Positions 4,386-11,763 of a stretch of 64,000 nucleotides of DNA are shown here, piece by piece (position 1 is the first letter of the stretch; each line of letters starts with the position of its first letter). The notes beneath the pieces are model-generated. The model made no database searches. It saw only the letters and a program-made list of their open reading frames with translations, and was not told the DNA's origin. The position numbers and the translations under genes were made by a program. This DNA is from Morchella semilibera (lineage: Eukaryota; Ascomycota; Pezizomycetes; Pezizales; Morchellaceae), in contig CM018604.1 of NCBI GenBank assembly GCA_009192285.1, positions 2,852,001 to 2,916,000 of the forward strand, read 5' to 3'.

Positions 4386-7097
4386 GAAATCTTTTTTTAG
4401 CTGGTTGATAGATTCCTCTTGGCTTTTTATTTTTATTTTCTATCTTCTTTCTTGCTGTACAAGTTTTCGCTATTGTTAGGAACTGGGTAATTACTCTTAG
4501 GAACGAAATGAGAATATAAGGCCCGTTTCAATCCATTCCATTGTACTCCTGGCGTTATTTTGTGTTTTGTGCTTGGATCATGGTGGATCACTCGACCTGA
4601 TAGCTAGCCTCAATGATATCTTTAACAGTATATTGCAGGTATTTGGAGACGTGGATCACAAAGAGCAAAACATCAGATTGCCATGCCTCGTGCGTGCTAG
4701 CTTGCCTTCACATATCCTTCCTATAGGGTCATCATTCTGACCCACCGGTAGCGAACAACCTACCCTCAAATTCACGGGCGGTAGGGCATCGATTCATCTT
4801 ATATGTATATCTGAAGCAGCTCAATCTAGATCACAAGATTGGTACTAGTTGCCGGTTTCAAGAGGGTATGGAGGTATCCATGCAGTTTCTTGCTTTACAT
4901 CCCTGTAGATTCGGAGATAAGATTTAGATTGGTGCCTCCTTTGGAGTAGAGTGCCGGAGCTGGGACCATGGGGAGGCTTGAGGGAAGTACATACACAAGT
5001 GGTGATGTAGTGCACGTGTCGATGGAAATCTGGTGTGCATCATGTGGGAGTTGGGATATAAAGTTTGATTATGGAGGAGTGGTGGTGGCTGAGTGGAGGC
5101 AGAAAGGGATGGGGAGGCGGGCTTCCGCGATCTTCCAAAAGAAAAAGACCTGCCTACATGAAGACGCAAGCTCGGGTTTTAGAGGTCTGCTGTGGGATCA
5201 AAGATGCGGGCTTCTTGGCACTAGGGTTTTATTAGATCTTCTATGATCATATACTAAAGGAGATCGTCTCGAGAACGGAGCAGTATACTTGGAGGGGAAA
5301 CCGACATGATAAATACGCTGAACGGTATAGATTGCCTTGGGATGGGATATATTCCCACAATGCTGCGGCGGTAACATTTTTTTTTTTTGAGAGACTGCCC
5401 CTTACTCATGTTATTGCAACTATATCTAAGTGCAACCTGTTCTGTAGGTCCCAATTGTTCCAACGTTCGCTTGATCTTACAAATCAGACTGGCAGGTAGA
5501 AAAATGCATAATCCAACCATAGAGATCAGCCAATCCACCCTATGTACGTACGTATACAGCACAGATAGGTACCGTCCAGCCGGATGAATCAACGTCCCTC
5601 CCCCCAGCCTACGAGAGTACTCGTCATCGGAATGTTATTTTCGGAGGCCGCCCCGTGGATCACATCGTGCACCTACCATGGGATAGGAAGATCCCGAGTC
5701 CCGCTTAAGCATGCGATGAAAGTCCGCCAACGACCCACGGAGCTGGGTACGTAGGAAAGTAGACTACTATTAATAAATTTAAGGCTTAGGGGGGTGCATC
5801 CAAGGGTATCTGGGACATAGGGTTAAAGAGTAGGTACATGTGGGTACTTCCTCAGATGTACCTAAGTGCCCTACATGTGAGTACCTACATGTACTTTCAT
5901 GTATGTAGAGTAGGTACTCTACCCTACACTGGCTAAGGTTGACTGGTCTGGGACATGCAGGATCATTCGTATTCGTGGCTTTTATCGCCCTCCCCTCCCA
6001 GCCCTAGGCGAGTTCTGATTGCGGGGTCGGAGGGTTAGGTCCGCTGCACGTCGAGTATGACGACGGGCATTGATTGCATGGCTCCAAGACAACGAGATTT
6101 CTTTGGGTGGAAAGTCCCTTGATGTCGCAAAATGATGGCGGTAAAAAAAAAAAAAAACCAAGTATGTAAAAGTATGTAGTGAAATTCTAATGGTTACAAC
6201 TGAATTGAGTCCACCTAGGAAGGGCATGATCTACGGCGTAGAGGCGGTGAACGGTGGCCGGGAAGACCGCCACTAAAAAAAAAGTCGCCTGATCGGGACA
6301 AGAAACAGTGCTCGGTACAGAGGATCGTTCTAAAAGAGGGCTATTCTTGCGGGCCAAGGCGCAGACTTCTGCCACATTAGGGCACAGCCTTAAATTTGAC
6401 GACGACTGTCAGTCGATGGTGTCCTAGGGCAGTTTAGAAGTATGTCACTATGAGACAGGTCGACTGCAGCATCTGGAACAGACTGCTGCTGCAGGAGGGA
6501 GAGAAGAAGACGAAGAAGCACCAAAGAAGATGTATGTATAATTCTTGGTCTCCCTAGGCCCTCATGTATAAACTTTTCTCACCCCCCCCCCCCCGGGAAG
6601 CAATCCATGTAAAAGGTTCAGCGTAGGCACATATCTAACTTCCCTTTCCCACCCGTCTCCACTGCTGTTTTGAATCATTTAAAACAACCACCCCTTGAAC
6701 GGTCAGGAATCAAGCACAGTCCTCCCTGATTTACTCTATTGCTCTACTACCAACCGTCCGCCCCATACCGTGCGCTAAATCTCTCCTGCAACATTAACTA
6801 CCAACTCCCTGCTCTCTCACCCCCTTCTATTCATTCCATCTCCCTTTTACCCTCTCTCTCTCTCTCCCATTCTCTTCAACTTCATAGCCTCCCCCCTCCC
6901 TCCCATCCTTTCTATTTACCTTTCTTTTTCGGATTATTTTTCTGTTCTAGACGCTCCTTCTCGCTAGTTTTACAACTCCATCTTTTACAGCACACTCAAT
7001 ACACCCAGCCATCGGAAACATCATTATTAGTATTCTCCTGGCGGGAAAACGCGAAATAATTTCTCGTGTTCGTTAATATAATACAAGCGCCTTCAAA
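4386..7097. other. Intergenic, ADE17 to syntaxin
   Basis: I see no supportable gene; ORFs at 4968-5246 (+) and 5254-5592 (-) lack family features. The segment 5830-5930 is dense in GTAC/ACATGT palindromes, including TACATGTA at 5886. A C13 tract lies at 6582-6594. About 6770-6980 is strongly pyrimidine-rich (CTCTCT and CCCTCCC runs) and is probably the promoter and 5' leader of the syntaxin gene. Confidence 0.65.
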
Positions 7098-9203
7098 ATG
7101 AGTGTATGTTTGCCCCCCCTTCCACCTTCCAAAGGTTACGTGTTTCCGGCATCTACTAACATCTCATTTTGAATATAGGGCGGTTACGGGTATGTTATTC
7201 TTGGACACTGCCTATTGCTTCGCTTTCTTCCTATGACAAACTTCCGCCTATAAACGCCCTTCGATCCAGACATTTTCTTTGACGCCCTACTGACAAACTT
7301 TGTGTTACGTTTACAGTCACAACAATCCATACGCACAACAGGGCAACTACAATCCCAATGACAACTATGGTGCCAGTGGCGGATATGGCGGCGGCGCGCC
7401 AGGTAAGAACCCTCCCCTCAAGACCATCTATTGATGGTGGTGCGCAAGAGATCGATAAACCGATAAGAGCGTCTAGAGGTTGATTTTGTAAACTAAAAGT
7501 TGAACCGTACTCTCCCTTAGGCGCAGGGAACACATATGAAATGGGTACTATGAACGGCGGCTCACCACCCGGCTACGGTGAATCACCACAAGAGTTCTTT
7601 GCCGAAGTCAACGAGCTCCGAGAAGGGATTGAAACCGCCAAGAGCAACATTTCACGCATTGAAGCACTCCACCAACGCTCGCTAACAGAAGTTGATGAGT
7701 CCGCTTCTTCGCAGACTCAGCACCAGTTGGATTCTCTCGTCGCCGAGACCTCGGCGTTGAACAAGAACTTGGCAAACAGGATCAAGAGGCTCAAGGGCAA
7801 GGCTGCTTCGGATCCCACAAAGAGTCCTCAAGTCGGAAATTTGGATAGGAACTTCAAAGAAACTTTGAGGAAGTATCAGCAGGTGGAGGCTGCTTACTCA
7901 AAGAAGTCAAAAGAGCAAATGGCCAGGCAATACAGGATCGTCTGTCCGGAAGCGACAGAGGCAGAAATTGACGCGGCTTGCAACGACAGCCAAGGTGCAC
8001 AAATCTTCTCACAGGCAGTACGTTGGCACCGAATTATATCAAAATCCATTGCGCCGAAAAACTAACAATATTGCAGACTGTTGGCAACCGTCGTGGCGAA
8101 GCCCGTTCAGCTCTTCGTGAAGTCCAGGCCCGACACAACGAAATCCAGCGTATCGAAAAGACCATTATTGAGCTTGCGGACCTGTTCAACCAAATGGAGC
8201 AGCTTGTTGAGGAGCAAGAAACTATGGTAGAGGTTATTGACCAGCGTGGTGAAGAAATCCAGACCAATGTCGACCAAGCGCAGGAACAGATAGGGCAGGC
8301 AGTGGAAAAGGCGCGCTCAAGGAGACGCAAGAAGTGGTGGTGCTTGTTAGTAGTCCGTAAGTGCATCCCTAGTAATCTTTTTTGCGTATTCTATTCTCCA
8401 CATTCATTTCCCCTTCCCACTTCGTTTGTAGTTTAGTTCTTTCTTTTTCTCGATTTTGGCGGTCTCTTCTGGGACCCCTTATCCCTACAGCGCTATACCG
8501 TCCGCTTGGGAATAACCAGGGTCGTATCCCCCGAATGGGGATCTGGGAGGACAGTTCTTATCATTATCGTCGTGGTCGTGGTCGCAGTAGTGGTCACGCA
8601 GACGCGAAAATGAAAGACGGCCGCACCAGGACGAGGAACCTAGCTGGATTTCCAACTCTCTCTCTCTCTCTCTCTTTTCTTCCCCTAATCCCTTCCCCCC
8701 TTCGCACTTGAAAAAGAACGACCCTAACCTCGAAATCCTCGCATTGGGCTCCACATTTAGTCCTCATCATCATCGTAATTGTCGTCATCGCCCTTGTGGT
8801 GACAAAGGTCAATGGGATGTGGTGAACGGGCACCCCTTGGTCGCACCAGCATTAGGGGAGGAAATGGTTCGGAGCAAATGTTTATACCTGGGGGAAACTT
8901 GTATTTTTTTGAAACAAAATGGCGGGCGGGAGATTCTTGTTTCGTTGTTCATTTTTAACTTTCACTTTTCAATTTTTTCCTTTATTGTCAATTTCTTACC
9001 CCCCCCCCCCTCTCACACTAATACATTTGGAACGTGGAAAAAACTACGGATTGGTGGAAATATCTTGTGTCTCCATTTTTTATCCGGCTTCTAATATCTT
9101 TGCTTTGGGGGAAACTGCAGTTCTTATTATCATTGTTGTCGTCATCATTGCGGTCGTCGTTACCCTTCTCAACAGGAACAACAACAACAACACCACCAAT
9201 TAA
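7098..9203 (+). CDS. SSO1: Plasma-membrane Qa-SNARE (Sso-type syntaxin) with three alternative terminal exons
   Basis: Target-membrane SNARE for fusion of secretory vesicles with the plasma membrane. Common exons: 7098-7103, 7179-7189, 7317-7402, 7521-8017 and 8077-8356 (880 nt). A disordered Gly/Asn/Tyr-rich N-terminus precedes the Habc bundle (from about PQEFFAEVNELREGIETAK) and the SNARE motif, which follows EIQRIEKTIIELADLFNQM and has its zero-layer Gln in VEEQETMVE. Before the anchor comes RSRRRKKWWCLLVV. The donor at 8357 (GTAAGT) leaves one base, C. It can join 8555-8613, 8761-8825 or 9121-9203; each restores CTN-CTN-AT and encodes LLIII plus a hydrophobic anchor and its own tail and stop. 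Totals of 939, 945 and 963 nt are all multiples of three (312, 314 and 320 residues). The family call is firm; the symbol is by homology type, and use of all three exons is inferred. Confidence 0.93.
8555..8613 (+). other. Alternative terminal exon A of the syntaxin gene
   Basis: Follows GGACAG. With the C overhang it encodes LLIIIVVVVVAVVV, then the basic tail TQTRK and TGA. The intron would be 198 nt. Its acceptor lacks a strong pyrimidine tract and an obvious CTAAC-type branch site, so it may be the weakest of the three. It is the shortest isoform and most like a conventional syntaxin tail. Confidence 0.75.
8761..8825 (+). other. Alternative terminal exon B of the syntaxin gene
   Basis: Follows CACATTTAG, with a CTAAC branch-like site about 35 nt upstream. 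It encodes LLIIIVIVVIALVV, then TKVNGMW and TGA. A (TC)n tract at about 8656-8682 lies between exons A and B. The phase matches the shared donor at 8357. Confidence 0.75.
9121..9203 (+). other. Alternative terminal exon C of the syntaxin gene
   Basis: Follows AAACTGCAG, with a CTAAT branch-like site about 30 nt upstream. It encodes LLIIIVVVIIAVVV, then TLLNR, five Asn, TTN and TAA. The Asn-rich exoplasmic tail contains N-x-T sequons. The Asn run comes from an (AAC)n repeat, so this tail may be length-variable. Confidence 0.75.
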
Positions 9204-10638
9204 AGAGGTCCCGTACATATATAAATGGATGGAGCCAGATAAAAGATATTTTTTTCCATCAGCAGCACAGCACAGCACAGCAACGATATCGACACTTTTT
9301 TTTTTTCACGATGGGATGTTGGGTGGGCCAGGGGGATATTTCTTTCTTTCTTTTACTAACTCTTCGGAATTCACTTACTAGTATGTATGGTTTTTTTCTG
9401 TTAGGGGGATAATTAGCTTTCTTTTTGTTTCCTTCTTTCTTTTCTCCTTCCTGGGTTGCCCGTTATATTAATTACAGAGTACTCTATCTCTCCCTCTTTT
9501 TGTTTTTTCCCTTTCCTTGTGTGTATGTGTGTCTGTCTGAATTGCTGAGAGTTGCCGTCTGAATCCGTGATATGCTTTGATCTTGTACCGGCGATAGTGA
9601 TATAAAAATTTGTGGAGGAATGCTCCCTTTCTTGCGCGAAAACGCAAGCTTGGCTAGCTTAGCAGGGGGTTCAAGGAAGGAAGGAACGAGGGAAGTAATT
9701 GGGGGAGGGCAGGTTCCCCCCACCACCACCATCCTGGCTGGCTGGCTGTAGGGCAGGGTAGGCGGGGTTGAGTAATGTTTATTCAATAAGCTTTGAATTG
9801 CGAGGGGAGAGAGCCCGCCCCACCTCTAGTGATATCTATGCGTGATGTGTGTTTATTTTGGCGGCGGAATATATTTTTTCCATGCGGGCGGGTAGGCAAA
9901 AACAACATGTAATAAAGCCACGCTTGTGCCACCACACCATGGACCTGAATTGCTGAAACAGCGATCATTACCCGCTGCTCGCAACTACGGGAGAAGTACT
10001 ATAGTGTCTCTACATGTAGATTGGTACCAGGCCCTATATGTGTACAAGGGATGAGATATACACATGGCTGCCTCCTCGTCTCTTACATATAACTGCACGC
10101 AACACGTCATCAATCCAGCCCACTCCCACGAGAGTGCCCGTGGGGGAGATAGTGTAGTGTGTATGTGTGTGGAGGGGAGTGTTATCGTGTGGTGGCTGCG
10201 TCATGATATATCACTCGCCGCCTCGGCCATAATTGGTGGATGCTCCGCGCCGCGGAATGACTATGTACAAGCTAGGCCTATTAATTAATATCGACTCAAC
10301 ACATGACAGCGCCCCTCTTCCTTCTCACAATACAGGAGGCCAATGCAGTGTTTAGATGTCGCTAAATATGTGCTGTTGATTATAAAGGCAAATTAAGAGT
10401 CTCCCTACTGACTAGCTAAATTAACAAATACATGTGCACTAACAGACCAAACTCCAGAAAAAAGAGGAGGAAAGGAACAAAAAGCAGACCCAAGACATTA
10501 TTGATAGTGCAAAAGAGAGTATAAAACGCAAAAAAGAAAAAAGAAGAAGAAGAAGAGCTCAAAAATATCACAATTTCCAGTAAGAAGAAGTGAAGAAGGG
10601 ACAAGAAGGGTATATGAATTCTAGAGAGGGAGAGAGTA
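9204..10638. other. Intergenic, syntaxin to lipase (tail-to-tail)
   Basis: No gene supported. It holds both 3' ends: T-rich DNA after the syntaxin exons, a CAGCA repeat near 9261-9280, and an A/GAA-rich stretch at about 10450-10590 next to the lipase 3' end. TACATGTA occurs at 10011. ORFs here are short and low-complexity. Confidence 0.65.
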
Positions 10639-11763
10639 TTAAGCCTTACACTCTTCCCTCGCCCCCACCAGCATCTCTCCCCCCTCTACTTCTACCTCCA
10701 TAACCCTAATCTTCCTCAGGACAGAGTCCTGTGGGACGCATAGGCCCAGTCTATGAAAATAGTCCCTATGCGCCCACAGTATCTGTAATGCATCCACGCT
10801 GCCCCCCGCAGAACACTCTGGGTCCTCCGCTCCCACACACAGCCTCACATCACAGCGCGTGAACGGCAGCGATGTCTTCTCAATATAGTACTCGCCGCTA
10901 TGTTGTCGATACCCCCACGCTTCCAGTGGTACTAGCGGCACCGGGTCATCTACGTGCGTAACCCGCCGATATGTCCTCTCGTCAAACCGCGCGTCAAAGT
11001 ACTCTGCGAGCCCCTGGTTCCCCACGCGCGGCTCACCAAAGGTTGTCACCACGGGTGCCCACCCGCGGCCCTTGTAGTCGAGTGCCGCGAGCGCCGCTAC
11101 GGCGCCCCCTAGCGAGTGTCCGACGAGCGTGAGCTCGTACTCGGGGTTGTCCCTGCGGAGTTCCGCGACCACGTCGCTGATGATGGCATTTGTATGCGAC
11201 CAGGACTGCAGGAAGCCCGAGTGGACCAGGCAGTCGTCGCACTTGTCGCGGATGGCAGAGTGGCCGTCGGACGGGTAGGGAACGTACTCCTGCTTGTTGA
11301 ACGCAAGGTCGGCAAGCGCGTTCGCGACGCTGTAAGTGCCGCGGAAGGCGACGATGATGCGAGGCGGAGAGGGCGGGTGCGAGAGCGCTATGAAGCCACA
11401 GGAGTCGGAGAGCGTGGCGCCGGTGTTGAAGGTCTGGATGAGTTCGAAGGTTGGGAAGTCACGACAGAAGGAGGGACATTGGAAGGGAGGAGTGATGCCG
11501 GGGGCGAGGGTACCGACGCAGTAGGCGATATCGACGATTCGGGAGAGGGACTCGAGGTCTGCAAAGAGTTCTTCTGAGATGGGGGGGTTACGGGGTGGAG
11601 GTTTGTGGGGAGAGGAAGAGGTTAGGGGGGATTGGGGGACATCGTGGAGAGGGCTGGGTACGGCGGAGGTGAGGAGGGAGGAGGGCTGCAGTGTTAGCAG
11701 CAGCAAAAGGAGGTGGGAGAGGGGGGTCTTGAGGGGATGGAGGAACATCTGGGTTCTTGTCAC
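10639..11763 (-). CDS. Secreted class 3 (alpha/beta hydrolase) lipase
   Basis: Predicted extracellular triacylglycerol lipase or esterase of the Lipase_3 family. Single exon, 374 residues. The N-terminus has a hydrophobic signal region (HLLLLLLTLQPSSLLTSAVP) followed by a Pro/Ser-rich segment. The core contains IIVAFRGTYSVANALADL, the nucleophile elbow LVGHSLGGAVAALAALDY with Ser about 217, TTFGEPRVGN, the acidic residue in THVDDPVPLVPL near 272, and the catalytic His in WAHRDYF near 332. Two ATGs lie close together (residues 1 and 6); either leaves a signal peptide. Upstream on the coding strand is a long pyrimidine tract. Substrate preference cannot be read from sequence; feruloyl-esterase-like activity is possible. 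It lies tail-to-tail with the syntaxin gene and head-to-head with the SPP2-like gene. Confidence 0.93.
   Translation of the reverse strand: MTRTQMFLHPLKTPLSHLLLLLLTLQPSSLLTSAVPSPLHDVPQSPLTSSSPHKPPPRNPPISEELFADLESLSRIVDIAYCVGTLAPGITPPFQCPSFCRDFPTFELIQTFNTGATLSDSCGFIALSHPPSPPRIIVAFRGTYSVANALADLAFNKQEYVPYPSDGHSAIRDKCDDCLVHSGFLQSWSHTNAIISDVVAELRRDNPEYELTLVGHSLGGAVAALAALDYKGRGWAPVVTTFGEPRVGNQGLAEYFDARFDERTYRRVTHVDDPVPLVPLEAWGYRQHSGEYYIEKTSLPFTRCDVRLCVGAEDPECSAGGSVDALQILWAHRDYFHRLGLCVPQDSVLRKIRVMEVEVEGGEMLVGAREECKA

Follow-up and report, generated by a model that had tools for sequence, protein, structure and literature searches.

There is precedent in animals for splicing that changes the membrane anchor of a plasma-membrane syntaxin. 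In the C. elegans syntaxin-1 gene, unc-64, the alternative last exons 8a and 8b are described as confining the change to the final 14 residues of the anchor; each isoform arrives at the plasma membrane, the two are reported not to be equivalent, with rescue results that conflict between studies, regulation by UNC-75/CELF and tissue-specific use have been shown, and the authors refer to sorting into membrane domains that is driven by hydrophobicity (PMC4946901). Anchor variants of mammalian STX2 are likewise attributed to splicing (PMC4946901), and in the STX3A/B pair splicing is described as exchanging the SNARE motif together with the anchor (PMC11119284). A first-pass annotation of the DNA considered here likewise states that mammalian syntaxins use alternative terminal exons. 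As for fungi, two clearly diverged secretory syntaxins are given as the state in the sampled Pezizomycotina outside the Eurotiomycetidae, and in Trichoderma Sso2 is placed in apical compartments and Sso1 in older hyphae (PMC2639358). That article contains none of the strings splic, exon, intron and isoform.

The gene that we describe lies in a window of 64,000 nt from Morchella semilibera and, like unc-64, would use alternative last exons to swap the anchor end of a plasma-membrane syntaxin. It differs from unc-64 in belonging to a fungus and in having three such candidate exons against two. Mammalian syntaxins 2 and 3 also swap anchor segments by splicing, as the fungal gene would, but in STX3 the SNARE motif changes as well, whereas in the fungal gene it is constant. 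Since animal syntaxins have alternative last exons, the kind of switch is already known. Yeast Sso1/Sso2 and SsoA/SsoB of filamentous ascomycetes belong to the same family and are likewise diversified secretory syntaxins, but they are separate genes, whereas here there is a diverged second gene plus an exon array within one gene. Fungi are also able to switch a C-terminal peroxisomal PTS1 signal by alternative splicing or stop read-through. The PTS1 isoforms resemble the present case in that a C-terminal targeting part is changed through alternative 3' ends; unlike it, they are soluble enzymes in which the signal is present or absent, not a choice among membrane anchors that are alike. Fungus-directed searches of the open-access literature, outside of which most subscription journals lie, returned no report of a three-exon syntaxin array in fungi among the matches listed. 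The earlier remark that no fungal precedent was known is consistent with those full-text matches, which are not proof of it. The best explanation for the locus as a whole, to which we give a probability of roughly 0.7 on the sequence evidence set out below, is an alternative-last-exon switch that exchanges the outer anchor half together with the tail.

We rebuilt the gene model from a reading of positions 6500-10000, which gave five shared exons followed by one of three last exons (Table 1). The gene occupies 7098-9203 on the forward strand. Coding sequences that end in exons A, B and C come to 939, 945 and 963 nt, the totals already given by the first-pass annotation, and all three are open with no internal stop. 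The introns between the five shared exons measure 75, 127, 118 and 59 nt, and isoforms A, B and C all carry KARSRRRKKWWCLLVV up to the splice point. Isoform A matches Pfam families PF00804 (Syntaxin, 4.6e-12) and PF05739 (SNARE, 1.1e-12), both above cut-off, indicating an Habc domain and a SNARE motif; the SNARE match covers residues 249-301 and is encoded in exon 5. Among solved structures, to which this comparison was confined, the closest are yeast Sso1 (7.9e-48) and Sso2 (5.3e-47), followed by animal syntaxin-1. The Gln of the motif LVEEQ aligns with the Gln of LVIEQ in Sso1, and we take it to be the zero-layer glutamine of the SNARE. Judged by these similarities the gene encodes a plasma-membrane-type syntaxin, a Qa-SNARE of the Sso family akin to Sso1/Sso2, and its earlier identification as a fungal plasma-membrane syntaxin is upheld by the Pfam matches and by the top solved relatives.

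Table 1. Features of the syntaxin gene, in window coordinates
Feature	Position	Strand	Remarks
Exon 1	7098..7103	+	ATG AGT start; donor GTATGT; joined CDS open
Exon 2	7179..7189	+	Joined CDS open
Exon 3	7317..7402	+	Gly/Asn/Tyr-rich N-terminus; joined CDS open
Exon 4	7521..8017	+	Bulk of Habc domain; Pfam Syntaxin at residues 58-200
Exon 5	8077..8356	+	SNARE motif, polybasic juxtamembrane stretch, cytoplasmic anchor half WWCLLVV
Common 5' splice site GTAAGT	8357..8362	+	Sole GT[AG]NG[TAC] match in 8351-9300
Alternative last exon A	8555..8613	+	LLIIIVVVVVAVVV-TQTRK-stop; AG-preceded; weak acceptor
Candidate branch point CTAAC, exon B	8724..8728	+	Score 5.0; branch A 33 nt before acceptor G
Alternative last exon B	8761..8825	+	LLIIIVIVVIALVV-TKVNGMW-stop; AG-preceded
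Candidate branch point CTAAT, exon C	9091..9095	+	Score 4.8; branch A 26 nt before acceptor G
Alternative last exon C	9121..9203	+	LLIIIVVVIIAVVV-TLLNRNNNNNTTN-stop; AG-preceded; Asn-rich tail, two N-X-T sequons

The 56.8-Mb assembly of 23 contigs contains the 3' region of this gene once, on contig C2. A second, diverged syntaxin of the secretory type is present on contig C23 (1080345-1081226), with 37% identity across residues 204-309. On inspection by eye no intron splits its anchor, and, as in exon C, there is a run of Asn in its tail. A pair of diverged genes of this type suits a filamentous ascomycete, given the state cited above for Pezizomycotina. Viral and prokaryote sequence collections, each scanned twice, yielded no relatives. 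Convergent with the syntaxin gene, the window holds a 374-residue open frame with a GHSLGG motif (10639-11763, reverse strand), which presumably resembles a secreted class 3 lipase.

Exons A, B and C complete one shared split codon (C + TT, TC and TT, respectively, all Leu), and each encodes LLIII, nine further apolar residues and a Thr before its own tail and its own stop. The resulting apolar run, Thr included, is 22, 22 and 24 residues long in A, B and C, as for a single C-terminal hydrophobic anchor. On rebuilding, the three AG-preceded segments that had been proposed downstream of the shared donor at 8357 proved correct in coordinates, phase, length and peptide, and the common one-base overhang, the LLIII start with nine hydrophobic residues and the individual tails and stops were recovered as described. 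What did not survive is the label of mutually exclusive exons: cassette exons of that kind need a common downstream exon, and here each segment has its own stop with no other donor-like site up to 9300. Because of these stops, and because no second match to the donor pattern occurs in 8351-9300, we regard the segments as alternative last exons, or alternative 3' splice sites. The sequence has the corresponding pattern of one donor, several acceptors and, in each exon, an anchor and a stop. The absence of other donors is not significant in itself, being found also in 64 of 500 shuffles and in 5% of 522 background stretches.

Could such an array arise by chance? For each AG we took the peptide that would be opened after the donor's leftover base and computed its mean Kyte-Doolittle hydropathy over 14 residues. 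There are 59 AGs in 8397-9800, 36 of which give an open frame of 14 codons or more in the phase set by the donor, and an anchor of this kind follows only the three that precede A, B and C (4.04, 4.05 and 4.08, a range of 4.04-4.08; the next best AG reaches 1.96). The background, read on both strands, comprised 528 kb, made up of 20 stretches of 10 kb from the same genome and the window with the locus masked, and a stop within 40 codons was demanded in addition; two pairs of these stretches turned out to be identical over 9.95 kb. None of its 32,658 AGs scored 4.0 or more, two scored at least 3.5 (the same sequence twice, on duplicated contigs) and five at least 3.0. Nor did any of the 11,895 AGs in 500 dinucleotide shuffles of 8358-9203 reach 3.5. 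These scans of the locus, the background and the shuffles rule out a chance origin of the anchors, and the three-anchor array is a real, non-random feature. A fourth exon or a decayed copy was looked for in 7000-10500 in any phase (hydropathy at least 2.8, tail of at most 60 residues) and was not found; the only extra line in that scan was exon A again, entered at an AG five bases further upstream and out of phase with the donor. The same scan applied with 1.5-kb flanks to L004-L019, a partial set of SNARE genes that includes the syntaxin gene itself, revealed no second array.

With regard to the assembly, contigs C9 and C10, and likewise C12 and C13, are nearly the same size, and in each pair the 10-kb stretches set side by side show 100% identity for some 9.95 kb. 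The actin-family and transporter matches found on C9 are present again on C10, their scores unchanged. These pairs are either near-duplicate contigs or two identical nuclei assembled twice.

Comparison of the three exons with one another is informative as to their history. Over a 15-residue core the A-B, A-C and B-C pairs share 12, 13 and 12 residues (37/45 overall) and 11 of the 15 columns are identical in all three anchors; neither 37/45 nor 11/15 was reached in any of 20,000 composition-keeping permutations. Differences at codon positions 1, 2 and 3 number 3, 0 and 10 for A-B, 2, 0 and 12 for A-C and 3, 0 and 12 for B-C, and the variable columns number 4, 0 and 14, although the second-position result should be read with the caution that it partly restates that the residues remain apolar. 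Nucleotide identity is 93/135, compared with 95.2 (sd 3.8) under random synonymous recoding from the codon pool of this gene, and the synonymous memory of the copies is therefore gone. A recent tandem repeat can thus be ruled out, as identity at the DNA level is no more than the protein dictates. The estimates of dN are 0.08-0.12, and dS is 1.96 for A-B and saturated to the point of not being computable for A-C and B-C. Conserved residues together with saturated synonymous sites imply copies of old date, or else parallel inventions, each with a protein held by selection. The coding parts of A, B and C thus appear to be maintained by protein-level selection, apparently all three of them, and the earlier proposal of selection rather than decay is in keeping with the unchanged second positions, the saturated third positions and the lack of any lesion. 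Two qualifications apply. Since synonymous sites are saturated, residue order is the sole witness to common descent of the three exons, and if the splicing of one exon had been lost recently, this would as yet have left no trace in 19-27 codons.

The splicing signals were judged on a branch-point scale set beforehand (CTRAY-like, after the fungal consensus) and calibrated on 26 trusted introns, of which four are those of this syntaxin gene and 22 are gaps between Pfam matches. The latter were drawn from 29 candidate gaps in TCP-1 (19), sugar-transporter (3) and actin-family (7) genes and kept on exact residue count; seven were dropped, two without a solution and five off by at least one residue, and the second syntaxin gene contributed no introns. 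In the five gaps that were off, too, a branch point with a score of 4.8-5 is present at 14-18 nt. A score of at least 4.8 within 42 nt was found in 16/26 trusted introns as against 7.3% of 1,734 random YAGs; for these YAGs, six of the 20 background stretches were sampled, on one strand each. Exons B and C have candidate branch points of this quality (Table 1), placed farther out than in any of the 21 trusted introns with a score of at least 4.6 (9-24 nt); within 8-25 nt the best scores are 3.0 for B and 3.2 for C. The AG-free stretch before the acceptor extends over 42 nt for B and 186 nt for C, which speaks in their favour; 10% of random YAGs (n=1,702) have at least 40 AG-free nt and 3.5% at least 60. 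Exon A scores 4.0 at 39 nt, a value equalled or undercut by 3/26 trusted introns, and the pyrimidine fraction of its acceptor (0.24) is below that of all 26. The introns leading to A, B and C would be 198, 404 and 764 nt long versus 127 nt for the longest trusted intron, a comparison that is biased because the trusted set was picked from short gaps. Taken together, the B and C acceptors look usable yet non-standard and the A acceptor weak, a profile that could reflect either a regulated choice or poor exons. Folding of 8350-9210 gave no unusual RNA structure (z +1.72; 20/20 shuffles fold equally well or better), and an RNA structure that brings the donor close to the far acceptors thus finds no support from folding. 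An 80-nt intron at 8357-8436 (acceptor 8437) was considered and rejected: it opens 91 residues that are not apolar, and it has a poor branch point. The frame concerned (8437-8711, AG at 8435-8436) reads exon A out of frame and encodes no anchor. As judged from the sequence, this splice is probably due to chance, with an anchorless isoform as a possible alternative. Retention of the intron after 8356 adds 26 residues, again with no anchor.

How do other explanations fare against these data? One is that only B and C are live and that A, its frame intact, is being lost, its acceptor dead or nearly so. Exon A has no good branch point, is preceded by an extra AG 3 nt upstream and ranks last in pyrimidine fraction among all acceptors that were scored. 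However, its coding part carries no lesion and is conserved as well as those of B and C (13/15 with C), and weak acceptors are typical of regulated exons; we regard the loss of A as unlikely, if worth keeping in mind. It is rather improbable that the anchors converged, that is, that V/I-rich segments arose from simple codon repeats rather than from duplicated exons. The anchors are of low complexity and their nucleotide identity is that of random synonymous recoding, as convergence would have it, but all three share the LLIII start, an Ala at residue 11 and a Thr at residue 15, an order that none of the 20,000 permutations reproduced, and the three exons have the same phase and the same start. 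The alternative-exon reading stands even under convergence.

We give little credit to the possibility that one exon is functional and that its two neighbours are remnants, or noise of splicing, in a long 3' UTR. It would account for introns to A, B and C that are longer, and for B and C branch points that are more distant, than in trusted introns; against it, third positions are changed in 10-12 of 15 codons, and unconstrained copies should also show second-position changes and stops, which none of the three does. Still less credible to us is a dosage device, in which choice of A or B would create a long 3' UTR and make the mRNA a target for decay, so that the amount of syntaxin is tuned and not its kind. 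By coordinate arithmetic, A and B mRNAs with a shared distal 3' end would indeed have their 3' UTRs lengthened by 590 and 378 nt, measured to the end of C, but such a device does not require three well-conserved anchors, as it could work with an alternative exon that shifts the frame or does not code. The poly(A) hexamers listed at the locus favour no reading over another.

We favor, then, the switch between last exons. Under this working model, one gene would give rise to up to three plasma-membrane syntaxins that have the cytoplasmic protein and the inner anchor half WWCLLVV in common and would differ in the outer anchor half and a short extracellular tail. By the topology of syntaxins, the part that is swapped comprises the half of the anchor in the extracellular leaflet and a tail outside the cell. 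The switch would operate at splicing, with the acceptors at 8555, 8761 and 9121 competing for the single strong donor at 8357; we infer that all three are used, B and C being the better equipped and A probably needing help. The three exons would stem from an old tandem duplication. Exons A and B may have poly(A) sites of their own or may be read through to a common 3' end, in which case unused exons would become 3' UTR. Past the anchor Thr the predicted tails are QTRK in A (net +2), KVNGMW in B (+1) and NRNNNNNTTN in C (+1), and the two sequons of C lie near the membrane. The variants of tail and anchor may tune how the syntaxin is seated or clustered in the plasma membrane. Fine-tuning of position or clustering would be the likeliest kind of role for the swap by analogy, because the worm 8a and 8b isoforms differ in a like manner. 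A division of the isoforms between tip and subapical membrane, or between developmental stages, is speculative. The fullest version of the model, in which an old and selected three-way splice switch directs three tails and anchor halves to different plasma-membrane domains or stages as a separate fungal counterpart of the animal switches, is tentative and on balance doubtful.

It is common to regard SNARE anchors as greasy posts, any of which could stand in for another. Three near-identical anchors with different outer tails, in which codons have been scrambled and residues held, are evidence from nature that both the tail and the outer anchor half matter. If the switch is confirmed, animals and fungi would have arrived at the same solution, and one gene with three short exons would provide a simple system for testing the role of the SNARE anchor.
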